A stretch of DNA of 33,022 bases from Candidatus Aminicenantota bacterium. GTDB lineage: Bacteria > Acidobacteriota > Aminicenantia > JAMOAD01. Location of the stretch: contig JALVQI010000141.1 in NCBI GenBank assembly GCA_027031485.1, positions 1 to 33,022 on the forward strand, written 5' to 3'. Numbering within the stretch: position 1 is the stretch's first letter; every line of letters begins with the position of its first letter. A model generated the notes under the pieces. That model did no database searches. It was given only the letters and a program-made list of their open reading frames with translations, and was not told the DNA's origin. Position numbers and translations under genes: made by a program. Positions 1,224-33,022 of the stretch are shown here, piece by piece.

Positions 1224-1988
1224 ATGAACTCTTCTACCATTGAATATAGCACTATTCGTTATAAAAGAAATTTTCTTAAAGAAGTAATTGCACGTATTGA
1301 TTTTTTGAATCCCATTCCTTTGCTTGCAAACAAAATTCCTAAAAGTATTACGGACTTAATAAAAAAGAATTTTCCAATTGCAGAACCAAGAAAGGCAATA
1401 GCCCAAGAATTACAAATATCGCCAAAAAGTTTTTCTCATAAAAGAGAAGAATTTCAGGAATGGAAATTTTATAGTAAAGATAAGGATAAAACTTTAACTA
1501 TTAATCAAAATTCAATTTTTGTGAGTTATAAAAAGTATAAAACATATAAAGAGATAAAAGATGAATATCTTTCAGTTATTAATATATTCGCAAAAATTTT
1601 TAATGATATTCAAGTAAGAAGAGCAGGATTAAGATATATAAATGAAATTGTTTTGGAAGGGGATCCCTTTGAGTGGCAAGAATATTTAAATAAAAAAATA
1701 TTATGCTTACTAAGTTATTATCAAAAAAAAGAAGAATTATCAAGAATATTCCACGTTTTGGAATTCAATTTTAATATTTTTAATCTTAGATTTCAGTTTG
1801 GCTTATTCAATCCTGATTTCCCAGCACCAATAAAACAGAAAAACTTTATTTTAGATATGGATGCTTATAATGAAGGGATATTAGATATATCTGAGATATC
1901 AAAAATCATAGATAATTTCCATCAAAAAATTCAAGAAATGTTTGAAAATACAATTACGAACAAATTTAGAAAGATTCTCAATGGATAA
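1224..1988 (+). CDS. TIGR04255-like family protein (sporadically distributed, unknown function)
   Basis: 254 aa. N-terminal 'F.KEVIARIDFLNPIP' and central 'NQNSIFVSYKKYKTYKEI...VRRAGLRYINEI' resemble the TIGR04255 pattern as remembered; no search was run. Confidence 0.65.
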   Translation: MNSSTIEYSTIRYKRNFLKEVIARIDFLNPIPLLANKIPKSITDLIKKNFPIAEPRKAIAQELQISPKSFSHKREEFQEWKFYSKDKDKTLTINQNSIFVSYKKYKTYKEIKDEYLSVINIFAKIFNDIQVRRAGLRYINEIVLEGDPFEWQEYLNKKILCLLSYYQKKEELSRIFHVLEFNFNIFNLRFQFGLFNPDFPAPIKQKNFILDMDAYNEGILDISEISKIIDNFHQKIQEMFENTITNKFRKILNG

Positions 1989-2154
1989 AGAAAGTGTCTT
2001 TAGTAAAGAATACCGTCCAAAAGGTTCAACACAATCTTTTAAGATTGAAAAAACAAAAAAACATGAATCAATAGAACCAGAAATTGAAATTAAAAAGTAT
2101 GGGATTAATAAACCAGTAAGACAAATAATTCGAGCAAAAGTTATTAATGATTAA
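1981..2154 (+). CDS. Small (57 aa) hypothetical protein, coupled to the upstream and downstream genes
   Basis: ATG 1981 overlaps the stop of the upstream gene (ATGGATAA), and its end overlaps the next start (ATGATTAA). The 1942 start in the ORF track is less likely. Confidence 0.6.
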   Translation: MDKESVFSKEYRPKGSTQSFKIEKTKKHESIEPEIEIKKYGINKPVRQIIRAKVIND

Positions 2155-2704
2155 AGTAAAAGTACAAAAAAAAACTAGAATCTATCAAGGTGATATTTTT
2201 AGGAAAGTGGAATATATAGAATATGTTTCTGAGAAATCTGGGATAATTGAAGTTTCTAAAATAATTTTTCCTTTGGTTATTGTGTTGACCCAAGATTGCG
2301 ACCTTCAACAAGATTATAAATTCAGATGGTCTAGGTTAAGAAATAGTACCACTCATGATAAACTTTTGCTTTCTGTTTTGGTTGCACCTTTATACAATAT
2401 AGAACATGTCTATTTAGGAGAACATTTATCTGAGTTGGGTTTTAAGATGGAACCTATCAATAAAAATAAAACTCCAGGTAAATATCTAAGGAACAATGAA
2501 AGACCTCGATATCATTATATTGAATTTCCTCCTGAAATACCTATAGTTCCATCTGTTATTGATTTTAAACATTATTTTTCTGTTAATATTAATTTTTTAA
2601 GGGAAATAAAAAATACAAATTTTGTTTGCCGTGTTTCTGAACTATACCGTGAAAATATATCACTGCGATTTTCTAATTATTTATCAAGAATTGGTCTGCC
2701 ATGA
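2147..2704 (+). CDS. Hypothetical protein (185 aa), partner of the TIGR04255-like gene
   Basis: Start overlaps the previous stop. The sequence '..IYQGDIFRKVEYIEYV...VLTQDCDLQQDY..' is well formed. Confidence 0.7.
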   Translation: MIKVKVQKKTRIYQGDIFRKVEYIEYVSEKSGIIEVSKIIFPLVIVLTQDCDLQQDYKFRWSRLRNSTTHDKLLLSVLVAPLYNIEHVYLGEHLSELGFKMEPINKNKTPGKYLRNNERPRYHYIEFPPEIPIVPSVIDFKHYFSVNINFLREIKNTNFVCRVSELYRENISLRFSNYLSRIGLP

Positions 2705-3152
2705 AAATAACTTTACCCAACTCCGGACTACACGCGGACACAAATATATAAATTATAAATGATGATTCTGCGAAAGCAGATTTATTAAAATGTCTCACGT
2801 AAGTTAAGACTATTCGTTGGTGGGGGAAAATGTTAAAACTCAAAAATCTAACTAAAATACAGCCTATGTGCTGTTGAAACATCAGCTACTAAACCCTTGA
2901 GAAGAATAAAGAAAGCATAACAAATCACTTTACGTAGAAATATTTTTATTCCACTTCTCTGCTTTAGACAATAAATACGCGAAGGATAAGAACAATTTAA
3001 CAAACATTTTTTTTAAAATTGACATTAGTAGTGAAATAAATAGAGTAAACATTTGAGAAGTAGCTGTTAAAGGTTTATAATTAATAATCAAAGATGAGAG
3101 AATGTTGTATAAGAAAGAGATTAATATTTAATATTAAGGAAGGAGGTATTTT

Positions 3153-5303
3153 ATGTCTCAAAAGGTTGTTTATGATATTATTCATGGAAATATTGAAATA
3201 TCCAAACTTGAATCTATTTTATTAAAAGATCCTATAATTAATAGATTACACCAAATACTTCAAAATTCTACAGCATATACAGTATATCCAAATTTAAAAT
3301 ATACAAGATTTGAACATTGTTTAGGGACAATGGACTATGCAGGAAAAATCTTCCAATATGGGCTAGTAAATTCCTTATCTTCTAAAGAGTTTTTGGAAGA
3401 AAAAAAGGATATTATAATTAAAATAATTCAAACAGAGGAAGAAGATTTATTTACCGATTTTAGGGAAATGGCTAAATACAGTGAAACCATAAGAAAAATT
3501 TTTTCCTTAAAAGAGAATGACTCCTTCTCAATAGTACTTAGCAAAGAGGATTTTCTTACTTATTTAGATGATTTAATTGGAGTAGGTTTTCACAACAGAA
3601 ATCTATTTTCAAGTAATTATAAAGATAAGATTACTAATAAATATTATCAATACGAAATTATCAATAAATTATTAAATCAATCCGTCAGGATTTTTGGGCT
3701 TCTTCATGATATCGGTCATCTTCCATTAAGTCATTTATTTGAATTTGCTATTGACAGTTTTTATGACTATTTATCAAAAATAGAGAATAAGGAAGGTATT
3801 TATAATGAATATTTTAATAATATAAAGGAAATTTCTGACAAATCTGATGAGAAGAATAAAGACCAGATCCATGAATTAATTGGGAAAAAAATTACCCGAT
3901 ATATTTTATATAATTTAAATTTAAAGATCCACGAAGATAAATCACTTGAGATAAAACAAAAAGCAATTTTTCTTTTTATAGTACAAATCATAGATTTCAT
4001 CTTAAAAGAAATTGAAAAAGGAAAAGAAAGCAGATTGTATTCTATTTATTCAATTGTTTCAGGAACTATTGATGCAGATAGACTCGATTTTGTACAAAGA
4101 GATGGCTTATTATCCGGAGTAGCTAAATGTTCAAGTAATGTAAATCGATTAATTAGAATGTTTTGTCTTGGGAAGAATCCATTACCAGAAAAAAATGATA
4201 AATTTTTGTTTATGCCATCAATACAATCACTAAATGATGTGGAAGAATTACTAAACAATAGATTGAAAATTTATAAATTTGTAATAAATCATCATGCTGT
4301 AAAAAGATCAGATTTCCTTTTTCAAAAATTAATTGAACTAAAATTAAAAAAAGAAATAGAAGAATTAAACAAAACAAATCATAGATCACTTTTGAAATTA
4401 AACAGATTAATTAATACAATTGATATTGCAAGGGATTTATTAAAAATAAATAATATTACAAGGGGTCTTTCCTCCATAAATGTTAGAAAATACATACAGC
4501 TTACTGACTATTGGTTGTTAAGTATATTAAACAAAGAATATATTGAAGTTATTTTGAATGATGAACCTGAGAATGATAATCTCTACGATAGTTTATTAAA
4601 GGAGATATATGAAAGTAAGCGTGAATTCAAAAGTCTCTGGAAACGAAGCTATGAATATCAAAATTTTTTATTAATTTTGGGTCGAAAATTTATTGAGAGT
4701 AAAAAACTAACTGAATATCAGTTCAAAAAAGATAGAGGGCTTGAACGTTTTGAAAAAGAAATAGACTTATTATATAATAAGTCTATGAAAATAATAGAAA
4801 AATTTAAAGAAAATGAAAATAAAATTAAAGATTATGAAAAAAAATTTTGGAAAAATATTGATCAAAAGGAACGAGGACAGTGGCGAGAAAAATTAAAGAT
4901 AGAAATAGAAGACAATATTAATTACAAGAATTCTTTTATAGAATTAGGGAATAGTTTGATTTCATATATGAATGTGTTTGACGAAGCTCTTTGGGTAAAA
5001 GAGATTTCTAATGAAATTTCCAAAGAAACCTCTTCGGAAATTCTTATATCTCCAGCTAAAATAAAAAAAGGGATAGAAAATTTATATTTAATTGATAATA
5101 AAAATGGGAAAAAGGTATTCTTTTATAAACAAGTCTCCTGTCAAGAAGAAACAATCAAGAAAGAAATTAAATTATATACTAAATTTTTTGTTTTTTATTC
5201 TAATTCTAATAAAAAAGGGAAAATCAAAAATCTGCTTGTAGAGAAAATATGTGAATTTTTTACTACAAATTATTTAAAAAGGAGGAGAAACGATAATGTG
5301 TAA
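3153..5303 (+). CDS. HD-domain phosphohydrolase, dGTPase/SAMHD1-like
   Basis: 716 aa with 'NRLHQILQNSTAYTVYPNLKYTRFEHCLGTMDYA', 'GLLHDIGHLPLSH' (HD motif) and 'GTIDADRLDFVQRDGLLSG'. RBS AAGGAGG. Confidence 0.85.
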   Translation: MSQKVVYDIIHGNIEISKLESILLKDPIINRLHQILQNSTAYTVYPNLKYTRFEHCLGTMDYAGKIFQYGLVNSLSSKEFLEEKKDIIIKIIQTEEEDLFTDFREMAKYSETIRKIFSLKENDSFSIVLSKEDFLTYLDDLIGVGFHNRNLFSSNYKDKITNKYYQYEIINKLLNQSVRIFGLLHDIGHLPLSHLFEFAIDSFYDYLSKIENKEGIYNEYFNNIKEISDKSDEKNKDQIHELIGKKITRYILYNLNLKIHEDKSLEIKQKAIFLFIVQIIDFILKEIEKGKESRLYSIYSIVSGTIDADRLDFVQRDGLLSGVAKCSSNVNRLIRMFCLGKNPLPEKNDKFLFMPSIQSLNDVEELLNNRLKIYKFVINHHAVKRSDFLFQKLIELKLKKEIEELNKTNHRSLLKLNRLINTIDIARDLLKINNITRGLSSINVRKYIQLTDYWLLSILNKEYIEVILNDEPENDNLYDSLLKEIYESKREFKSLWKRSYEYQNFLLILGRKFIESKKLTEYQFKKDRGLERFEKEIDLLYNKSMKIIEKFKENENKIKDYEKKFWKNIDQKERGQWREKLKIEIEDNINYKNSFIELGNSLISYMNVFDEALWVKEISNEISKETSSEILISPAKIKKGIENLYLIDNKNGKKVFFYKQVSCQEETIKKEIKLYTKFFVFYSNSNKKGKIKNLLVEKICEFFTTNYLKRRRNDNV

Positions 5304-7338: not shown

Positions 7339-8018
7339 TAACAATATTTGTAACTCTCTATAAGTAATTTGAATGCTTATATATCTAGTTTGAACATAAC
7401 TTTAAAAATACAATATTTTTATTTGTAATATATTTTAACCTTTACTTTTTTAATAAAAGAACAAAAAGGGGATATTTTCATTTATTCTTGACTGTTGTAC
7501 TTATAATCCTTTCTCAATTACCCTTTATCAATCAAAAACCCCCAATCCAAATTCCCCAAAACCTCATTTTTTTTATCAACAACCTTCCCCAAATCCGCAG
7601 AGCAGATGTTTAAAGAGATATTATCCTCAAATTTCCAGCTTTGTTCCTGATTACGTAAATCTTTGGGGAAATATCAGAAAGCAAATATTTATGCTCTTTT
7701 GATTTTCAGTTTTATTATTTGTTTTTGTAGAAATTTTGAGGGTTTGAAACTCTTGTTATTTATGTAAATACAAACTTCTCCGTCGTCTACTATTTCAGTA
7801 TAGAGATGGGGGAGTTTCTAAACTCCTAAATGAAATAAAGGATTTGAGTAAAGTGAAATGAATATAGATACCCACTTGTTGTACAAGTGCAATAGCATCG
7901 AAGCGAAGAATTATGGGCCTCCACTATATCTTTTTTTTTAATTTTGTTAATCCCAGTTTTTCTTTAAATACTTCAATGAATTGGCTTTTTCTCCCTTAAT
8001 TTTAGAACAGGAAACCAA

Positions 8019-8307: not shown

Positions 8308-8380
8308 GTCTAACGTGACAGCTTAGGGGAGCCTTTGTAGCGTCAGCGGAATAGCGGATAGGTGGAGCGCTTTGTTGGGC
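8308..8380 (-). repeat. attC-like integron recombination site (site 1, degenerate)
   Basis: Minus strand starts GCCCAAC (RYYYAAC) and ends GTTAGAC (GTTRRRY), 73 bp. The stop codon TAG of the upstream gene ends in the R'' box. L-box complementarity is weak. Confidence 0.6.
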
Positions 8381-9408
8381 TATTTATCAGTTTTAAATGC
8401 GTCTTTATACGATTGTATTCTATCAAGTTCTTGTTGAACTCTTATTCCAAGATACCCTCTTTTAGGCCAGTCAAGCCAAGATAGCTCCAAGTTAAAATTA
8501 AAAAGCCTGTGTAACCCTTGATATAAAGCCTTTGGAACCTCGTTATCCCTTTTGTGATTCTGAAAAACTACATGGTCTGTACGGGTATCAGTCACAACAA
8601 AATCAATCAAAGAATTTGACCAGAACCGACCATCATATTCCATTTTGTATAACTTAGACGGTAAGCCAATCATTGAAAGCTGATCAAAAATATATGTGCC
8701 TTTTTTTGCATAAAAAGTATTCCAAAAAGCACCAGATGTTATCTCCTCTTGAAAAGCGCTTATCGGAAGAAATTGTTCCATCCCAAGATCTAGAATCCAA
8801 AGCATTGGATCTTTAAGATCTACCCATAATATATTGATAGAGTTTTTCTCAAATTGGTGCTCCTTCTGTTTTATTGCAGCCAGTTTTGACACTGCCTCGC
8901 CTTGAACAGTATCTATATTCCTTTCTGGCCACCCAAAGGGAAAAATCTCATATACTTTACCTTTGACTTTATCAGTACCAAACGATTCGTGTTCTAAGGT
9001 ATGTCTTTTTGTTCTATGCTGAGGGGTATTAACTTCTATTCTGATTGTATTTCCATCTATATCGATCGAAAAATCACTTCCTTTTTTTCCAGATTTTATA
9101 CGAGAACCCCAAACCCATATAAGCTCACCATAAGCCCTTATCTCTCCCAATGCTGCAGATACATTTGATACATCCTCATCCTCTAAAATTATTTTTGCTT
9201 TTTCTCTTAGCCATGATTCATTTTCATCTTTTACTAATTTAACGCATTTGTCCGTTCTCATAGCAACATCCTTGGTTCTGTCGTTCTCCCCAAGAATAAG
9301 TGAGATTAGAGGATGAGTCTTATCGATAGAATACTTTAGCCCATTTGCGTAAGGCCAAAATATTTCTCTCAAGTTAGGATAGTTTTTAAATTTTTCTTTG
9401 AGGCTCAT
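8380..9408 (-). CDS. Hypothetical cassette protein, possibly restriction-endonuclease-like
   Basis: 342 aa flanked by two attC-like sites. It contains 'SAALGEIRAYGELIW...KGSDFSIDIDGNTIRIEVNTPQ', a possible degenerate PD-(D/E)XX core (D..ExN). Confidence 0.6.
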   Translation of the reverse strand: MSLKEKFKNYPNLREIFWPYANGLKYSIDKTHPLISLILGENDRTKDVAMRTDKCVKLVKDENESWLREKAKIILEDEDVSNVSAALGEIRAYGELIWVWGSRIKSGKKGSDFSIDIDGNTIRIEVNTPQHRTKRHTLEHESFGTDKVKGKVYEIFPFGWPERNIDTVQGEAVSKLAAIKQKEHQFEKNSINILWVDLKDPMLWILDLGMEQFLPISAFQEEITSGAFWNTFYAKKGTYIFDQLSMIGLPSKLYKMEYDGRFWSNSLIDFVVTDTRTDHVVFQNHKRDNEVPKALYQGLHRLFNFNLELSWLDWPKRGYLGIRVQQELDRIQSYKDAFKTDK

Positions 9409-9423
9409 TTAATAATCCTTTTA

Positions 9424-9496
9424 GCCCAACGACCAAGCTCACCTGCACCCTCGCAGGCGTAGCCGAGAAGGCGTCAGGTGCAGCAGATTGTTATGT
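9424..9496 (-). repeat. attC-like integron recombination site (site 2)
   Basis: Minus strand ACATAAC...GTTGGGC. The arms GCTGCACCTGACGCC / GGGTGCAGGTGAGC pair with unpaired extra bases (G and A in the 5' arm), as in bona fide attC. The stop TAA of the MTase gene lies inside CATAAC. Confidence 0.75.
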
Positions 9497-10396
9497 GGAA
9501 AATTGTAAATATTTTTTTATCTCTTTCGTATTAGTTGGATTAGAAATATTTGGTACTGATAAATTATTATTAAATATAATAATTTCTTTGCCCATTGAAG
9601 CGCCACCTGCAAAATAATTTAGTGAATAAATATTTTTCTTAAAATTATTATATAAATTTTTTATTAGTGAAACATTATCATATGATATGATCCAATATTG
9701 ATTTTTTAATTTTTTTAATAGAGTAGCAATACTCTTATGGTCTTCATAATTATAGAAGTTTAAATATAGGTTTTTGCCTTTCTCATAATATGGAGGATCT
9801 AAATAAAATAGTGTCTTTCGCGGAAGGTCTTTATATAGTCTTCTAATTATTATTAAAGCATCTTCATTGTATAAGTGAATTCTATTTTTGTAATTTGCTA
9901 TCAATTGTATTCTATTTATCAATTCTTTCTTATTGAATCTTGCGTCCATTTTCCATTTACCATTTTGGTTTTTACCACCTATTAATCCAGCGTTTAATAT
10001 ACCTGACCTATTTGTACGATTAAGATAGAAAGTAGAAAATCCAACTTCTAATATTGAATATTCATATGATTTTAAATATATATTCTTTTGTTTTCGCCAT
10101 TCATCTACACTTATATCTGTGTCAAAAACTTTTTTACATAATTCCTCAGTAAAATTCAACACAGAATACCAAAAACAGTAAATATTAAAATCTAAATCGT
10201 TAATATGAATATCAGAAACATATTCGTTTATAAGTAAATCCAATGCAATTGATGCGCCACCTGCATATGGTTCAACATAATTTCCATCAATCAAGAGGTT
10301 CTCTTGTAAAATAAGTTTAATAAAATTTGATAATTTACCTTTTCCACCAGGATATCTCAATGGAGAATAATATCTCATATTTACATTAAATCCCAA
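9491..10396 (-). CDS. D12-class (Dam-type) adenine-specific DNA methyltransferase; likely start 10378 (MRYYSPLRYPGGKGKL)
   Basis: 'SPLRYPGGKGKL', 'YVEPYAGGASIALDLL', 'NRTNRSGIL..GLIGGKNQNGKWKMDARFNK' and 'FYLDPPYYEKG' (motif IV DPPY). Confidence 0.93.
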   Translation of the reverse strand: MGFNVNMRYYSPLRYPGGKGKLSNFIKLILQENLLIDGNYVEPYAGGASIALDLLINEYVSDIHINDLDFNIYCFWYSVLNFTEELCKKVFDTDISVDEWRKQKNIYLKSYEYSILEVGFSTFYLNRTNRSGILNAGLIGGKNQNGKWKMDARFNKKELINRIQLIANYKNRIHLYNEDALIIIRRLYKDLPRKTLFYLDPPYYEKGKNLYLNFYNYEDHKSIATLLKKLKNQYWIISYDNVSLIKNLYNNFKKNIYSLNYFAGGASMGKEIIIFNNNLSVPNISNPTNTKEIKKYLQFST

Positions 10397-11733
10397 ATTT
10401 TTTGAATGAAAGGTTCAATATTATCCCAGGTAATTTTTAAATCATTTTCCATAGGATTATAATTTTTATTATGAACATAAGCATTAAAGGTATTAATTGA
10501 AAATATGGAATTGGGACTTGCGACCATTGTGTTAATAGGTTTTAATTGATGCTTCGTTAAGTGACCGTTTTTTCCCAAGTATTCTGAAACTGCTTGGACC
10601 TTTTTAATCAATTTTGCATTGATATTAACATTTATATTTTTATTTTCTATAAATGAATCCAAACTTAATTCAATAAAAACTCTAAATGTAATCGCGGCAG
10701 CATTAATGTATTCTCTTAAATCAAGATCTTTTAATTCTCTATAAATTTTATTTATACGAATTTGATTAATATGTATGATACAACTCTTTGGAATAATCGT
10801 ATTTCTGGTTGTTGATAAATGCTTACTTTTTTTCTTCTCTTTTTCTTCAGGCTTTATAGTGGTAGGGGGCGAAGAAGTTATTATTTCCCATTTCGACGTT
10901 TTCTTCGTTTTATCAGGTAACTCTGAATCTTTAAACGTTTCAATATAATTTGCTCTATCATCTTTGTAATAAATATTTTTTACAGTAAAATCATCTTTTA
11001 GTAAATCTTTTATTATTTTGGTAAGAGGTTTAATAATCTCTTTAGGTGGTAAATGGGAAATAATCCTACCATCTTTTATTTCAATTCCAATAACTTCTCT
11101 TATATCTGGATCAGTAATAAGACGTTGAAGACTAGATATTGGAACCTGTCCTAATTTTTGTCTTATATCATCATTAAAAAATTCACTCTTATTAAGAAAA
11201 TCTATGATTTGTAAGGAATATTTTGATTTGCCTTCAAATCTTTCTTCAAATCGAGCTTTTTGCTGTGCATCCCAACTTACTATGCCAATACCTTCATTTT
11301 CACCAGTATGTTTTAATTTTATCCATCTTAAAGCATCTTTTTCATCACTAAAAATAACACAATTTAATTTCGTTATAGGATTAGATTTAAACTGTCCTGA
11401 CAATTTTCGAAATTTGTTTAAAATACTTTTTTTGCTTTCAGGAATTAAATCCGGGTTATTAAGTAATTTTAGAACAGTCACTCTTCTGTTCCCTTCTAAA
11501 ACATTGTATTTTCCATCGTTTTTAGGATGATGTGTCACAATAATTAAATCAGAAGGGTTAACACCATTATCAATAATATCTTGAGCTAATTTTACAAGTT
11601 TTTCTTTTTGATTATCTATCATTAAAGATATAGCTTCTCTTTGAGTTCCTACCATTTCAAAACGCGGATTTTCAGTATTTACCATTAATAGAGTAACATC
11701 TAATAGACGAATTTCATATTTCATATCAACCAC
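10381..11733 (-). CDS. ParB/Srx N-terminal-domain protein
   Basis: 'NVLEGNRRVTVLKLLNNPDL' is ParB/Srx-like. The stop lies 2 nt before the MTase ATG at 10378, so the pair is bicistronic. Confidence 0.75.
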   Translation of the reverse strand: MVDMKYEIRLLDVTLLMVNTENPRFEMVGTQREAISLMIDNQKEKLVKLAQDIIDNGVNPSDLIIVTHHPKNDGKYNVLEGNRRVTVLKLLNNPDLIPESKKSILNKFRKLSGQFKSNPITKLNCVIFSDEKDALRWIKLKHTGENEGIGIVSWDAQQKARFEERFEGKSKYSLQIIDFLNKSEFFNDDIRQKLGQVPISSLQRLITDPDIREVIGIEIKDGRIISHLPPKEIIKPLTKIIKDLLKDDFTVKNIYYKDDRANYIETFKDSELPDKTKKTSKWEIITSSPPTTIKPEEKEKKKSKHLSTTRNTIIPKSCIIHINQIRINKIYRELKDLDLREYINAAAITFRVFIELSLDSFIENKNINVNINAKLIKKVQAVSEYLGKNGHLTKHQLKPINTMVASPNSIFSINTFNAYVHNKNYNPMENDLKITWDNIEPFIQKIWDLM

Positions 11734-11910
11734 CTTTATTATACCACATAATATAAGATCAAGTGTAATAATGAAAAAAGCAAAGGTTGCTCTCCGGGAC
11801 TACCTAATCTATGTTGCACATTAATTTTTAATTATTTGTTATTAATTGTTTTACTCATAATTTCTCCTTATTTTGTTTTCTTGTATATGTTGCTATTTTG
11901 GCAACAAATA

Positions 11911-12180
11911 CTAAAAATCAACGGGACCAAATCCACTTTTTAAATCTTTCTCATGTACTATTTTTACCTTTTTCAAATGTTCCTTTAAAGAATGAACAAT
12001 TTTCTTAGGTAACATAGTAGTACTCTCTTTTTCTCCCATTTCAATAGAATGCTTTTTGTTATGAAAAAATATAAATCTTTTACCCCAATTAATGTAAGAT
12101 CCTTCAGTCTTTAAACTATAATGTTTAACTCGAATAACTTATCTTATTCGGTCTAAAAGTTTTGGTGTATTCTCTCTCAT
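11911..12180 (-). pseudogene. Decayed integron integrase (IntI-type tyrosine recombinase)
   Basis: Translation MRENTPKLLDRIR*VIRVKHYSLKTEGSYINWGKRFIFFHNKKHSIEMGEKESTTMLPKKIVHSLKEHLKKVKIVHEKDLKSGFGPVDF*. This is the IntI N-terminal SAM-like domain fused directly to the IntI middle region (LP..L..LKEHL..VK..HE.DL..GFG), with one internal stop and the rest deleted. Confidence 0.75.
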
Positions 12181-13297: not shown

Positions 13298-13329
13298 CTG
13301 CCCTTTTTTATATTATACCATACGACCCT

Positions 13330-13390
13330 CTCAAAATATCACAAAACCTGTATCAAATAGTGATAGAGGTTAGAGTTTTTTTGAAAAAAA
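13330..13390. repeat. Dispersed ~60 bp dyad element, copy 1
   Basis: ctcaaaatatcacaaaacctgtatcaaatagtgatagaggttagagtttttttgaaaaaaa; shared with copies 2 and 3. Confidence 0.9.
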
Positions 13391-15933: not shown

Positions 15934-15958
15934 TTAATCTCCTCAGCTTTTTTATATT

Positions 15959-16017
15959 CTCAAGATATCACATAACCTGTATCAAATAATGATAGAGGTT
16001 TGAGTTTTTTTAAAAAA
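15959..16017. repeat. Dispersed ~60 bp dyad element, copy 2
   Basis: ctcaagatatcacataacctgtatcaaataatgatagaggtttgagttttttttaaaaaatc. Confidence 0.9.
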
Positions 16018-18855: not shown

Positions 18856-18882
18856 TTTACCTCCTCACCTTTTGTTTACATC

Positions 18883-18942
18883 TTCAAAATATCACAAAAC
18901 CTGTATCAAATAGTGATAGAGGTTTGAGTTTTTTTGAAAAAA
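18883..18942. repeat. Dispersed ~60 bp dyad element, copy 3
   Basis: ttcaaaatatcacaaaacctgtatcaaatagtgatagaggtttgagtttttttgaaaaaaa. Confidence 0.9.
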
Positions 18943-22396: not shown

Positions 22397-22656
22397 AGAA
22401 ACCTCCAATAAAATAATTATACGTGCCAAAAAGCCTTTTGTTAAACAATAAAGATTCATAAGAAATTATTTTACCGTAAGTTAAAAACTTAATCAAAAAA
22501 ATTACTAAAAGAGGGAGTAAAAAGATAATACGTTTAAAAAAAGAAAAAATTTATCAAAGATTCTGAAAAAAAGCTTATAATAAGCATACGCAATTATCGC
22601 GAACTTTTATGATTCTCACTTCTAAGCTTTTAGAATTGGGTCAAAAAATAGTATGG

Positions 22657-27850: not shown

Positions 27851-27979
27851 GTATAACGGTTTAAATTTGCTATGTTTGGTGTTTTGAAACAATTTATTTT
27901 CAAACTGCCACTATTTAATTTTTACTATCATCCTCAATTTTAGCACTATCTGCCAAATGCAATATATTTGTTGTTAGCG
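27851..27979 (-). repeat. attC-like site (site d, long and divergent)
   Basis: Minus strand CGCTAAC...GTTATAC. Arms show partial complementarity (AAATATATTGCATTTGGCAG versus AAATTTGCTATGTTTGGTG). The stop of the CPBP gene lies in CGCTAAC. Confidence 0.45.
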
Positions 27980-28861
27980 GTTCGTTGTTTTATTCCAATA
28001 TGGGTTTATTATATTTCCTTTTCTATGACTTAGAATTAAAAGAATAATTGTTGCAATTAAACAAAAAAGTGTTGCTTGAATTGAACCTTCCGGACCAAAT
28101 TGTCCTCCAGTAAACCACTCTGCTCCTTGTATTTTAGAAGTTATTAATGTTTTTGAAACTGCATTTCCTGATACATTGGCTCCAAAAATTGCAGATTGTG
28201 TAAAATTCCAAGCAAAGTGTATAGCAATTGGAAACCATAAATTTCTTGAATAGATATAAGCCGCAGCAAGTAGTAATCCCGCTTGAATTGCAAGACCAAT
28301 TCCAGTACTTATTGAACTGTTTGGATTTGCAAGGTGCAAGGCTCCAAAAATAAGAGCTGAAATTATTAGTCCTATATAGCTTCCTAATTTTTCTTCTATG
28401 ATTCTAAATATTATACCTCTGAATAAAATTTCTTCAAAAATGGCAGAACTAAAAGCCATAGTCAATGGTGGAATGATGAATAGAATAGGATTTATGGATA
28501 AAACAGAATATCCGCCTTTTAGATAAATTACTAATATTGTCAATGATTGTAAAATTACACCTAAAATAATTCCAGTAGTTAAATTTTTAATGATACCTTT
28601 TTTTGAGAATTCAGTAATTCTTCTTTTTTCATAAAATTTGTAAAGGAAAATATAAAAGACAATAGCTAAAATTGCGGAAATAACTCCAACTATCAAATGG
28701 TTTAATTCTTTTGTCATTGAAATTAATTTTAACAGTTCACTAAGGAAATACTGAGATACTCCATAGATACCTGCTACAACAATAATCCCAATTAATATTT
28801 TTGTCACAGGAAAATGTAAGATTTTCTGTCCGATGCTTTTTACTTTCATATTATTCTCCAT
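27974..28861 (-). CDS. CPBP-family intramembrane (CAAX-type) metalloprotease
   Basis: 'SSAIFEEILFRGIIFRIIEEKLG', 'ALHLANP' and 'AIHFAWNF' motifs in a polytopic protein. Confidence 0.93.
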   Translation of the reverse strand: MENNMKVKSIGQKILHFPVTKILIGIIVVAGIYGVSQYFLSELLKLISMTKELNHLIVGVISAILAIVFYIFLYKFYEKRRITEFSKKGIIKNLTTGIILGVILQSLTILVIYLKGGYSVLSINPILFIIPPLTMAFSSAIFEEILFRGIIFRIIEEKLGSYIGLIISALIFGALHLANPNSSISTGIGLAIQAGLLLAAAYIYSRNLWFPIAIHFAWNFTQSAIFGANVSGNAVSKTLITSKIQGAEWFTGGQFGPEGSIQATLFCLIATIILLILSHRKGNIINPYWNKTTNR

Positions 28862-28889
28862 TTATTTATATTTTATATCGTTACAATAA

Positions 28890-28969
28890 CCGCTAACGTG
28901 CTGCGGGTATACGAAGCCACTATAGGTGGTTTGGGTAAGCGGAGCGAAGCGCATAACCGCTGTTATCTG
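28890..28969 (-). repeat. attC-like site (site a)
   Basis: Minus strand CAGATAAC...GTTAGCGG. Arms GCGGTTATGCG / CGTATACCCGC. The stop TAA of the preceding gene is in the box. Confidence 0.7.
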
Positions 28970-29517
28970 CCGTTTTCATGATTCATCCTTTCTGAAGTTA
29001 AATCTATAGATTTGAGTTTAATCGAGTTGGCTTCTAGCCTTTTAAGCAATGAATAAAAAAGAGTCCAGCATTCTCTTTCTTTGAGTTTATTCTCTATTTC
29101 AATTCTCGCTTTTTGTTCATTACAATATCGAATATTTTTCTCAATTTGGAGATTTTCAACTTCTAATTTTAATTTCTCTTTGTTTAATTTCCAATTACTT
29201 ATTTTTTCGATTGCCTGCACTATTACCCAAATGGCACCAGAAGAAACAGTAACAACACTTAACATTAGTTCAACTGTAAGTGGGGATTCCTTAATTATCT
29301 TTAATGTTCTAATTCTATGTTCACCTTTTAATGGTCGTCCCCGCCTGTACCAAAAATATTGTGAGAACTGATAATCATAATATTCCTTTGCACAAAGTAA
29401 TAAAGAGAAATCATGCAGTAACTCAAAATCATAAAATAATGATGAAATATCTAAAAGATATGGCTTCTTCTCATCCTCAAACTCCAGCCTTATCTTAATG
29501 AAACTATTACATTTCAT
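28963..29517 (-). CDS. Hypothetical cassette protein with one TM segment and a coiled coil
   Basis: 184 aa; 'SPLTVELMLSVVTVSSGAIWVIVQAIEKISNWKLNKEKLKLEVENLQIEKNI'. Confidence 0.65.
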   Translation of the reverse strand: MKCNSFIKIRLEFEDEKKPYLLDISSLFYDFELLHDFSLLLCAKEYYDYQFSQYFWYRRGRPLKGEHRIRTLKIIKESPLTVELMLSVVTVSSGAIWVIVQAIEKISNWKLNKEKLKLEVENLQIEKNIRYCNEQKARIEIENKLKERECWTLFYSLLKRLEANSIKLKSIDLTSERMNHENGR

Positions 29518-29539
29518 CTACTCACCTCCTTGAAAATGG

Positions 29540-29618
29540 CACATAACGTGTTGCGGGTATCTGAAGTGCCGAAGGCGATTTGGGTGAACGAAGCGAACAG
29601 CAAACACGCTGTTAAGTG
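29540..29618 (-). repeat. attC-like site (site b)
   Basis: Minus strand CACTTAAC...GTTATGTG. Shares CATAACGTGttGCGGGTATCTGAAG...GATTTGGGTG with site c. Confidence 0.7.
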
Positions 29619-29633
29619 AAGTTAGCATCTTTT

Positions 29634-30545
29634 TCATATTTCTATTCCATTTAAAGTTGCCGCTTTATAAAAAGCTAAGAGTTCCGCGATATTTTGTACA
29701 ATAATTAACGGTGAAGCTAACATTCCTTCAAAATTTCTTACCCAAGCTTGTTCTGTTACCTTTCCTTTAGGTGTTTCACATGATACCTCACAACCATGCC
29801 ATTTTATATCTTTCCATACTTTTTGCCTCTGCTTTATCCCTTCAATATCAAAAATATTTTTTATTTCTGGTAATTCTGGTATTGATAAATGTTTAGAACT
29901 AAGACCCGATATAATTCCTTTATTAATTAAGACACCTTCTATTTCCGCCGCTTTTTTAGAAATTGGATTCCATGTTAATTCTAATTCTATTTCTGCTAAT
30001 GTTACTAAATCCTGAATATATTCATAACGTTCGTACTCACTCATAGAATTTAAAGTATCTTTTGAATCCTCCAAATATTCATTTATTTTATCTCGAAATT
30101 TCATCTTTGCAATTGTCTCTCCAATAATACCATCGACAACTGCCAAATGAATTTTTTCTAATAGATACGTTTTCTCATCGTATGAAATTATATAAAATGG
30201 GAAGCGATGTTCCATCGCTATCTTCAGTTTCAATTCCAATTTCTTTTTTCTAAGCTGATCTTTCACAATTTGAATGTATTCACCACCCCTATTATAACCA
30301 TGACTCAATCCATCAAATTCAATACACAGAAGCGGTTTGTCCTCTTTGTCACATACAGTGTAATCGATGTTTGTTTTCAATAGGAAATCTCTTTCTTTAT
30401 GATTGATGTTTAATGTTTCAATATCAAAAATTTTGGTAAACGGTAATTGGGGGTATATATTGAAGTTATCTTTCCAGATTGAATTTAAGTGCCCAAAAAG
30501 CTCTCTTTCGTGATACCCATCAAGTACGCATTTTCTTAAGCTCAT
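29634..30545 (-). CDS. DUF2726-like (PD-(D/E)XK superfamily) cassette protein
   Basis: 'NIDYTVCDKEDKPLLCIEFDGLSHG...VKDQLRKKKLELK' matches the DUF2726/Vsr-like core arrangement. Confidence 0.65.
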   Translation of the reverse strand: MSLRKCVLDGYHERELFGHLNSIWKDNFNIYPQLPFTKIFDIETLNINHKERDFLLKTNIDYTVCDKEDKPLLCIEFDGLSHGYNRGGEYIQIVKDQLRKKKLELKLKIAMEHRFPFYIISYDEKTYLLEKIHLAVVDGIIGETIAKMKFRDKINEYLEDSKDTLNSMSEYERYEYIQDLVTLAEIELELTWNPISKKAAEIEGVLINKGIISGLSSKHLSIPELPEIKNIFDIEGIKQRQKVWKDIKWHGCEVSCETPKGKVTEQAWVRNFEGMLASPLIIVQNIAELLAFYKAATLNGIEI

Positions 30546-30575
30546 AACTTACTCTTTCCTATGTTATACCAATTT

Positions 30576-30665
30576 CACATAACGTGTGGCGGGTATCTGA
30601 AGTCCGAGCCGATAGGCGAGGATTTGGGTGTAGTGCAACGAAGCCAGATACCCGTCTGTTGTGCG
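30576..30665 (-). repeat. attC-like site (site c)
   Basis: Minus strand CGCACAAC...GTTATGTG. Near-perfect arms GACGGGTATCTG / CAGATACCCGCC. Confidence 0.75.
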
Positions 30666-30670
30666 AAGGC

Positions 30671-31945
30671 TCATCGTATCACCTCAGCAGTGTTAATGAT
30701 TATCTCTTCAGCTATAAATCTTAGCAAAGGAATTTCCATTAGCAATTTTCTATCATCCCTAAATGGCATGTATTTGGGTTTACCCCCTTCTTTGCTATGT
30801 ACAATAGAATTTCTTGTTTTGTATATTCTGTCTGCTATTTTTTTAAACACTTTTTCAGCATCAAATATTGAAAAATCAATAGAACTTCCTTGAGAAAATG
30901 GCACTTTATTATCCTTATAGTAATTTATCAATGATTCATCGTATGTTCTTAATTTATCAATAAGATCCTCTAACTTAATATACTTCACTATGGTCAAATA
31001 CAAGGCTTCCTGTTCGTTATATAATACATCTTCATCCTTGTATTTCATTTTTTGACTTATTAACTTAATTAAGTTATCTATATCTTTCTTTCTTTTATAT
31101 GAAAAATCAGGACTTGTTATCTTTGCTCTTATTACATCAATTAACTCTTCATGATATACGTCATAAAAGAAATGTTCAATAATATGATAAAAAGATAAAA
31201 ATTGAAGAGGTATGCTGTCGGTTGATACTGCCATTTGATAATGATATACGAGGTCAGAATTATAAACACGGCGAGGCGGTTCTATCTCCTCTGGTCTAGC
31301 GCGCCTTATCTTGCCAAATCTATATCGAGTAAGTTCATGCAGAAATCTTACCTCGATTATCGCAATATCCAAATTATAACTTAAATTGAAAAGAAATGCT
31401 GTTGCTAACCTAGAAAACTCTCTACTACTTCTAGGTTCTTGTGATTTAATCTTAAGTGTATATACACGAGGCATCGCTATTCTGCTTAAAAATTCAAAGA
31501 ATTCTAATTTTTCTTCGCCTATCTTTTCCCTTAAGATACGTAATGGAAAAAGCCGAAAAAAATCTCTTAAATCTTCAGGTTCCCTCAAGATTCCCAAAAT
31601 AAACAACAAGAATTCATTTGTTAGTGGAGATAATTCATATGTAATACCATTGGCTGTATCTTCTTTTAAAAGGTATTCTTCATCAAAGAAAATTCTAAAA
31701 GAAATCGGCCGAGAGATTTCAAATTTTATCAATGCCTCATATGAATATTCATCATACAAAATTGTCTCATCTTTGATTTTCTTTCTTTTTAAATTTTCTA
31801 TCAAATTTTCTACCGATTTTTTCCCTATTTTCCAATTTTTATCAAACCTTTCAAGAACCAAAACAAATTTATTCTTTTTTTCATAAATAGACAGATAAGG
31901 AAGGTTGCTCAATATTTTTTTAAAATCTTCTATGTTCTCTATCAT
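30671..31945 (-). CDS. Putative HEPN-domain protein (abortive-infection-like)
   Basis: C-terminal 'IADRIYKTRNSIVHSKEGGKPKYMPFRDDRKLLMEIPLLRFIAEEII' has the HEPN Rx4H motif (RNSIVH). Confidence 0.65.
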   Translation of the reverse strand: MIENIEDFKKILSNLPYLSIYEKKNKFVLVLERFDKNWKIGKKSVENLIENLKRKKIKDETILYDEYSYEALIKFEISRPISFRIFFDEEYLLKEDTANGITYELSPLTNEFLLFILGILREPEDLRDFFRLFPLRILREKIGEEKLEFFEFLSRIAMPRVYTLKIKSQEPRSSREFSRLATAFLFNLSYNLDIAIIEVRFLHELTRYRFGKIRRARPEEIEPPRRVYNSDLVYHYQMAVSTDSIPLQFLSFYHIIEHFFYDVYHEELIDVIRAKITSPDFSYKRKKDIDNLIKLISQKMKYKDEDVLYNEQEALYLTIVKYIKLEDLIDKLRTYDESLINYYKDNKVPFSQGSSIDFSIFDAEKVFKKIADRIYKTRNSIVHSKEGGKPKYMPFRDDRKLLMEIPLLRFIAEEIIINTAEVIR

Positions 31946-31947
31946 AC

Positions 31948-32265
31948 TTATCCCTCCTTAGAGCTTTCACACAACTCCTTCACATCCGCATTGCGTATAT
32001 TTCCCAAATTAGTAATGATATCCGCAGTATTGCGTATACACATCCCGCTGGATGAAATTATATACCTCTCATAAATCATCTTTACCTTCCTTACCAATTC
32101 CCGATTATAAGGAACTCGTAATATCAATTTTTTATTTCTTCCTACTCCAATTTTCACGGCGGGAATTTTATCGTCCCTTGCCATTTTATAAAGAGTGGAA
32201 TTTCCTTTTTTAAAATACTGTGCGGTCTTATCAAGTGTCATTATAGGAGGATTTTTTTCCATCAC
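31948..32265 (-). CDS. Helix-turn-helix protein, excisionase/HTH_17-like
   Basis: 'MTLDKTAQYFKKGNSTLYKMARDDKIPAVKIGVGRNKKLILRVPY'. Its stop is 2 nt from the HEPN-gene ATG, so the two are coupled. Confidence 0.7.
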   Translation of the reverse strand: MMEKNPPIMTLDKTAQYFKKGNSTLYKMARDDKIPAVKIGVGRNKKLILRVPYNRELVRKVKMIYERYIISSSGMCIRNTADIITNLGNIRNADVKELCESSKEG

Positions 32266-32523
32266 AGGTTTAATCCCCCTTTAACCCGCCGCAGTTTATC
32301 ATTATTTAACATCATATAAATAATATAGCAAAGAAAAACAAAAAGTCAAGTTAATTTTTAGTGTGCGAGTGTAAGTCAGAAGAACGCCTTGAAAGAGTTT
32401 GAAACAGATATCAAAAAGTCTCCCTTCCTTTAATAATTAAATTAAGGAAAAATTAATAAAATTATCCACAAAAAGGACAAAACTTGAACAAATAACCAAG
32501 ATATTATAAAATAGTTAAGATTT

Positions 32524-32599
32524 GGTGAGTGTAGCTCAATGGCAGAGCATCGGACTGTGGATCCGAATGTTGGGGGTTCAAGTCCCCTCACTCACCCCA
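32524..32599 (+). tRNA. tRNA-His (GTG anticodon), CCA encoded
   Basis: Cloverleaf: G-1 + GTGAGTG/CACTCAC acceptor, D arm TAGCTCAATGGCAGAGCA, anticodon loop CTGTGGA, T arm GGGGGTTCAAGTCCCCT, C73, CCA. Confidence 0.97.
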
Positions 32600-32676
32600 T
32601 CTTATAACTAATAATTATCAATCCTTTAAGAAATTCCCCCGATTTTTAGTCCGAGGGTCGTGTGTCAAATTTGTGT

Positions 32677-32699
32677 CAAATCCCAACCACTGGTATAAT
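32677..32699 (+). promoter_or_regulatory. -10 TATAAT (32694-32699) with an upstream -35-like TTGTGT
   Basis: TTGTGT-17-TATAAT, then AGTTTT-ATG. Confidence 0.55.
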
Positions 32700-32705
32700 A
32701 GTTTT

Positions 32706-33022
32706 ATGGGAAAGAAGTTAAGCATAATAATGCCTGTTTACAATGAAGAGAAAACAGTGGAGGAAATAGTCAAAAGGGTGCTTTCCGTAAAGCTCAATAT
32801 TGAAAAGGAGCTTATAATAGTTGATGATTGTTCAAAGGATGGGAGCTATAAAAAGATTGAGGAACTCAAGTCAAAATTCAGTGAAATTGTTTTACTTAAA
32901 AATGAAAAGAATATGGGCAAAGGCTATTCCTTAAGAAAGGGAATAGAGAAAGCAAGCGGAGATATTATAATCATTCAGGATGCTGACCTTGAGTATGATC
33001 CCGATGAATACGGAAAGCTTAT
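32706..33022 (+). CDS. GT2-family glycosyltransferase (dolichol-phosphate-mannose-synthase-like), truncated at the window end
   Basis: [54 protein letters not shown]...[38 protein letters not shown]. Confidence 0.95.
   Translation, partial: [105 protein letters not shown]

Follow-up and report, generated by a model that had tools for sequence, protein, structure and literature searches.

Clusters of attC sites without an integrase (CALINs) numbered 2,961 in a 2022 survey of RefSeq, and were proposed to be degraded integrons (PMC9024848). In Xanthomonas, CALINs lie at fixed loci while the integrase activity is progressively lost (PMC12444791). In addition, cassettes can enter genomes at attG sites, according to Loot et al. 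(2024) as cited in PMC12901181. We analyzed a stretch of 33,022 nucleotides from a Candidatus Aminicenantota bacterium, hereafter called the window. The minus strand of 27851–31974 is very probably a CALIN, namely integron cassettes without an integrase of their own, and the locus is a well-supported further example of an element kind already known. Less ordinary is the complete exchange of its content between species without a detected integrase, and the least ordinary part of the array is its recurrent HTH-leader.

Cassettes and attC sites of the array

Four genes occupy the minus strand of this region, each with an attC-like site on its 3′ side (Table 1). The first-pass annotation had read four attC-like sites separating single genes of one orientation. 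The minus-strand orientation of every cassette gene and the positions of the three main repeats are as it described, but it ended the array at 30665, which is too short. The array continues to the crossover at 31974, and therefore the HEPN-like gene, which lay outside those limits, is also one of its cassettes. The stop codons lie in or near the R″ boxes, as had been noted: within R″ for the TM and CPBP genes, and 6 nt and 16 nt before R″ for the HEPN and DUF2726 genes, respectively.

Table 1. Positions of the array, its edges, and the integrase relic with its cassette cluster in the window
Feature	Position	Strand	Description
Cassette 1 gene	30671..31945	-	424 aa; HEPN motif RNSIVH close to the C-terminus
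attC site 1, after HEPN cassette	30576..30665	-	R″ GCACAAC, R′ GTTATGT; L″/L′ CGGGTATCTG/CAGATACCCG, perfect 10 bp
Cassette 2 gene	29634..30545	-	303 aa; DUF2726 domain (PF10881, 28.6 bits, above cut-off)
attC site 2, after DUF2726 cassette	29540..29618	-	R″ ACTTAAC, R′ GTTATGT
Cassette 3 gene	28963..29517	-	184 aa; probable TM segment and coiled coil
attC site 3, after TM/coiled-coil cassette	28890..28969	-	R″ AGATAAC, R′ GTTAGCG
Cassette 4 gene	27974..28861	-	295 aa; CPBP/Rce1-like membrane protease (PF02517, 70.4 bits)
attC site 4, last of the array	27851..27979	-	R″ CGCTAAC, R′ GTTATAC; divergent, AT-rich
Left flank, FKBP-type isomerase gene	26943 to about 27855-27860	+	96% identity with the sister species
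attI-like leader	31974..32034	-	two direct-repeat-like boxes; crossover G^TT, first T = 31974
HTH_17 gene upstream of the array	31948..32265	-	MAD1/excisionase-like DNA-binding domain (likeness weak, below family cut-offs); ORF continues into the leader
Right flank: HTH 5′ part, tRNA-His, glycosyltransferase	32065..33022	+	90% identity with the sister species
Sigma-70-like promoter candidate	32320..32349	-	TTGACT-TATATT/TATTAT, upstream of the HTH gene
Decayed integron integrase	11896..12159	-	stops, frame breaks, internal deletion; array about 16 kb away
First cassette cluster, next to the intI relic	8308..11751	-	two cassettes; attC 9424-9496 and attC 8308-8380

What do the cassettes encode? 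The C-terminal half of the HEPN protein (residues 226–414) resembles DzbB (Dazbog; PDLC03836, 48.9 bits). This likeness is C-terminal only, and the DzbA partner was not matched among the cassette proteins scanned. The HEPN protein is the sole cargo of the array with a worthwhile match in the defence library, and the DUF2726 protein is plausible as a nuclease, probably restriction-endonuclease-like as judged by its domain. The profile search returned zero families above the cut-off for the TM/coiled-coil protein. The earlier description of the cargo as “defence-like” is only partly supported, by the likeness of the HEPN protein to DzbB and by the DUF2726 domain; the TM and CPBP genes have no convincing defence match. 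Clear defence genes are present in related arrays, namely the first cluster of the window, the array of the sister species, and contig C116 of the same genome (G000). The cargo of the present array may function in phage defence, and the array adds to the picture in which integron cassettes serve as reservoirs of genes for phage defence.

How were the attC sites detected? Because aligning known attC sites generically with MAFFT gave a result of insufficient quality for covariance modeling, a purpose-written detector was used instead, which combines R-box weight matrices with the pairing of the R boxes and of the L stem. Its training set comprised only attC sites of class 1 integrons and of one cyanobacterial integron, 15 in total. 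This independently trained detector places the four attC-like sites within 2.8 kb, and three of them were also recovered by the family covariance model described below. On the minus strand of the window, sites 1, 4, 2, and 3 rank 2, 4, 5, and 7, respectively; ranks 1 and 3 belong to the first cluster (9424–9496 and 8308–8380), and rank 6 is a false match at 22446. Under a dinucleotide Markov null, 0.0075 matches scoring at least 31 are expected per strand-window, while the minus strand has three. Four matches scoring at least 22 within 2.7 kb of one strand appeared in 2 of 400 Markov-simulated windows. The divergent site at 27851–27979, proposed alongside the three clearer ones, is real, as its rank comes from a detector trained on the sites of other integrons.

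Sites 1–3 share the motif TAACGTG..GCGGGTAT..GAAG. The L stem has a single mismatch in site 3 (GCGGTTATGCG/CGTATACCCGC), and two mismatches and a bulged G in site 2 (GCGTGTTTGCTG/CAGATACCCGC). In free single-strand folding, only site 1 folds well among the four, and sites 2, 3, and 4 fold no better than shuffled DNA (z from −1.0 to +0.8). Sites 2 and 4, with their poor L stems, may be inactive.

The repeats are short, imperfectly palindromic, and GC-rich as compared to their AT-rich surroundings, and these properties would also suit REP- or MITE-like dispersed elements lying between genes by chance, an alternative that the first-pass annotation had itself raised. However, the genome-wide count refutes it: with up to three mismatches allowed, the assembly of 2.97 Mb contains exactly three copies of TAACGTGNNGCGGGTATNYGAAG, all of them within the array, and not one of the reversed-pattern control. 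Moreover, the repeats lie one per gene, at the 3′ end and on the same strand, their L stems vary compensatorily, and the cassette ends match their own fronts. Dispersed elements are thus an extremely improbable explanation, and the MITE and terminator readings of the repeats were rejected. An Rfam scan at gathering thresholds found tRNA-His alone, and scanning the GTDB genomes for the exact pattern gave one match, a chance one inside an ispH gene.

The family covariance model was built from five sites, three from the window and two from the sister species. In the five nearest genomes, it found only its input sites, one site in another species of the genus (G002), and a weak one in the first cluster. 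The new G002 site (63.3 bits; L060, G002:C131, 4691–4777) lies between tRNA-Asn and a DUF262-type gene pair, one member of which is HEC-06/SspE-like. Across the class, 18 of 143 genomes contain matches at E ≤ 0.01; several matches form arrays between genes on one strand, some of them with restriction-modification cassettes. Two such arrays with restriction-modification cargo (L149 and L150, G017:C19) belong to a genome with a listed completeness of 100%, in which an integron-integrase match at E ≤ 1e-30 was not found. Compensatory changes occur at 10 of 10 L″/L′ pairs. In the alignment of 30 sites, which was fitted to the structure and thereby favors the pairing figures, 90.4% of the L-pair cells are paired, and the whole structure is 84.6% paired as compared to 23–43% with slid partners. 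The size of this gap and an RNAalifold recount speak for real pairing in the family. Pairing is poorer in the R-box helix, which is expected since R′ is part of the following cassette. The sites throughout the family have a central CGCCCAAAT-like motif in common.

Cassette closure and exchange with the sister species

Cassette insertion splits the R′ box: the G remains at the cassette end, and the TTRRRY... portion becomes the cassette front. Each cassette's R″ should therefore match its own front, and we scored this closure by comparing the reverse complement of the R″ end with the front of the same cassette. The six cassettes of the window (four here and two in the first cluster) scored 10, 10, 10, 10, 10, and 8 of 12, or 58 of 72 in total, and the true R″-to-front assignment is the only one among 20,160 permutations to reach the observed sum. 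The closure is weaker on the class-wide arrays, where 3.6% of random draws attain the observed value, probably because some intervening sites were missed by the detection. The closure-predicted front of cassette 1, TTGTGTGAAAGC at 31974, is located about 29 nt upstream of the start codon, and the first insertion point therefore lies in the leader behind the HTH gene. The detector ranks, the closure, and the covariation support the attC identity and the cassette structure that had been proposed.

How does the locus differ in the sister species? The FKBP proteins of the two species are 98% identical, and the flanks of the array are conserved (Table 1). In the sister species (G001), the interior has two attC sites, and its genes encode an AriA/OLD-like ATPase (236 bits), a DUF6602/NucC-like nuclease, and two unknowns; similarity to the interior of the array in the window was not detected beyond the attC sites. 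On the left side, the homology breaks sharply at G^TT, with 4 matches per 15 nt inside as compared to 12 outside, and this break point is the crossover of attC site 4. On the right side, the leader is homologous until G^TT, and the similarity then fades. The whole cassette set has been exchanged between the species, and its left edge is the IntI cut point G^TT. A comparison of strains for changes at the cassette boundaries had been suggested as a check, and the sister species swaps all of the cassettes between the predicted points. No empty site is readable in G002, where the FKBP locus has a different gene order, and the G001 copy of the first-cluster locus stops at a contig edge. The sister species pair, with no intact integron integrase detected in either genome and with entirely different arrays, provides a natural experiment. 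Two species with different arrays between the same two points indicate that the content of cassette loci can be replaced at about the time when the integrase is lost, or shortly earlier.

An ordinary tRNA-linked defence hot spot, in which homologous recombination between the conserved flanks replaces the contents and the attC sites come along with the genes as passengers, could produce a similar pattern. The array adjoins tRNA-His, another such locus adjoins tRNA-Asn, and a nearby defence segment has changed by recombination between 70-bp direct repeats; flank recombination could also spread the replacement of whole arrays between strains. However, a left break at the integrase cut point is not expected from flank recombination, nor is the closure of cassette 1 on the leader. 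We consider the hot-spot explanation unlikely, and flank recombination could have moved whole arrays once they were assembled.

The nearby segment encodes an AbiE-like pair and a metallo-beta-lactamase-fold gene, bracketed by three 70-bp direct repeats (13319–13388, 15948–16017, and 18872–18941). In the sister species, 13409 is joined directly to 18881 with a single repeat copy remaining, and therefore 5.5 kb was gained or lost via recombination between the repeats.

The integrase and the HTH-leader

An intact integron integrase was not found in the assembly. TIGR02249 has no match over its cut-off genome-wide, and the nearest trace is the relic, in agreement with the earlier reading that no integrase lies nearby. 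The relic matches integron-integrase models only. Besides it, the assembly contains only two tyrosine recombinases, both Xer-like; with 97.8% completeness in 245 contigs, the absence of an intact integrase could be a matter of chance. Integron-integrase matches over the cut-off were also not found in G001 and G002. Throughout the class, an integrase above the cut-off is present in 6 of 143 genomes, in two cases with a stop codon, and broken or partial integrases occur in several others. Integrase genes are rare and often broken in a class harboring defence-gene cassettes. In the same class, an attC-like site similar in design is situated 3.1 kb from an almost full-length IntI reading frame, which has one stop codon (L084).

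The array had been called the second attC cluster, and a first one does exist, adjoining the decayed intI. Its two-gene PD-Lambda-5-like cassette (9491–11733; 547 and 400 bits) is next to the relic, and the second cassette spans 8380–9408. At the low end of this cluster, a weak attC-family match at 7797–7885 (23.5 bits) is perhaps a decayed site.

Could a recombinase other than IntI, such as the host Xer proteins or an Xer-like enzyme, have moved the cassettes? Several genomes of the class have attC sites of the family but no integrase match over the search threshold, and in L148 an Xer-like recombinase is one gene away from an attC site. On the other hand, IntI genes and relics occur in the class and in the window itself, and the R and L boxes follow the design of IntI substrates. 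The movement of the cassettes by a non-IntI recombinase is therefore very unlikely. In L148 (154–3000), the Xer-like recombinase with an N-terminal extension is followed by a TPR/HNH gene and then by the family attC. This recombinase appears to lack the IntI-specific region and was classed as Xer-like rather than as an IntI; in this one case only, a different enzyme may work on the attC sites of the family.

Where did the first cassette enter? The leader, which we take to be attI-like, contains boxes at 32034–32018 and 31995–31982, with a period of about 38 bp. The combination of an HTH_17 gene, two boxes about 38 bp apart, and G^TT is present in three loci: the window, G001 (L027), and G000:C116 (L051). 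The promoter-like TTGACT..TATATT is among the best candidates of the region, and is also readable in both homologous loci. An intI adjoining the HTH-leader is absent at all three loci, and a motif scan for additional leaders in G002 and G003 gave only chance matches within genes. In L051, the HTH-leader lies beside tRNA-Asn and is followed by a MjaI-type restriction enzyme and a methylase (1289–3618), with a weak attC-like stretch past this locus at 1161–1237.

A trans-acting integrase could instead have inserted the cassettes at a chromosomal secondary site, attG, rather than at a true attI. The assembly has no intact integrase, which suits this possibility, and cassette insertion at attG is established by Loot et al. 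(2024), as far as it is presented in PMC12901181 and PMC12444791. However, the HTH-leader carries cargo in three loci, which better fits a dedicated site than scattered ones, and the two repeat boxes upstream resemble the attI organization. Insertion at attG is accordingly conceivable, though somewhat unlikely.

We favor an attI-like leader and propose the following scheme. An integron integrase, either the ancestor of the relic or an enzyme acting in trans, would have joined the four cassettes in one orientation at the cut G^TT, and would since have been lost from the genome. Cassette 1 would have entered at the leader behind the HTH gene, serving as attI for this integrase. The later cassettes would then have joined at the R′ boxes, and the last R′ box would form the chromosome edge. 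Transcription may start upstream of the HTH gene, and the promoter there probably reads through the leader and the array, like Pc in an integron.

More speculatively, the HTH gene, the promoter, and the two-repeat leader might constitute a reusable docking and expression module beside tRNA genes, apart from the integrase, which receives cassettes via an integrase in trans. We regard this idea as doubtful. The landing site and the switch of such an integron platform would be uncoupled from intI. If the HTH-leader is such a dedicated landing and expression site, it would show that integrons can maintain their receiving half separately from the integrase.

Comparison with known integrons

The array shares with class 1 integron arrays the R″/L″...L′/R′ design, the G^TT crossover, and the spacer of about 6 nt before R′. 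In contrast to class 1, the spacer after R″ is about 2–3 nt rather than 5, the conserved central CGCCCAAAT-like motif is present, and no resistance genes were seen in the array. A functional intI beside the array, which together with attI and attC would make a complete integron, was not found.

As in the sedentary chromosomal integrons of Vibrio and Xanthomonas (PMC12444791), the genome has one attC family and accessory or defence-rich cassettes, and the progressive loss of intI leaves CALINs at fixed loci. Unlike these integrons, the cassettes are few and are distributed over more than one locus, in an assembly without an intact intI. The attG insertions likewise place cassettes in the chromosome at a distance from an integrase, but attG sites are scattered and non-classical, while the insertion site here recurs with an HTH gene.

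The closest likeness is to the CALINs as defined in IntegronFinder 2.0 (PMC9024848): at least two attC sites of the same orientation separate single genes, a nearby integrase is absent, an integrase relic lies elsewhere, and the cargo is poorly known or defence-like. The present array differs from them in two respects. Its contents are wholly different in a sister species that itself has no integrase over the family cut-off, and its 5′ edge carries a fixed, recurrent HTH-leader with its own promoter candidate.
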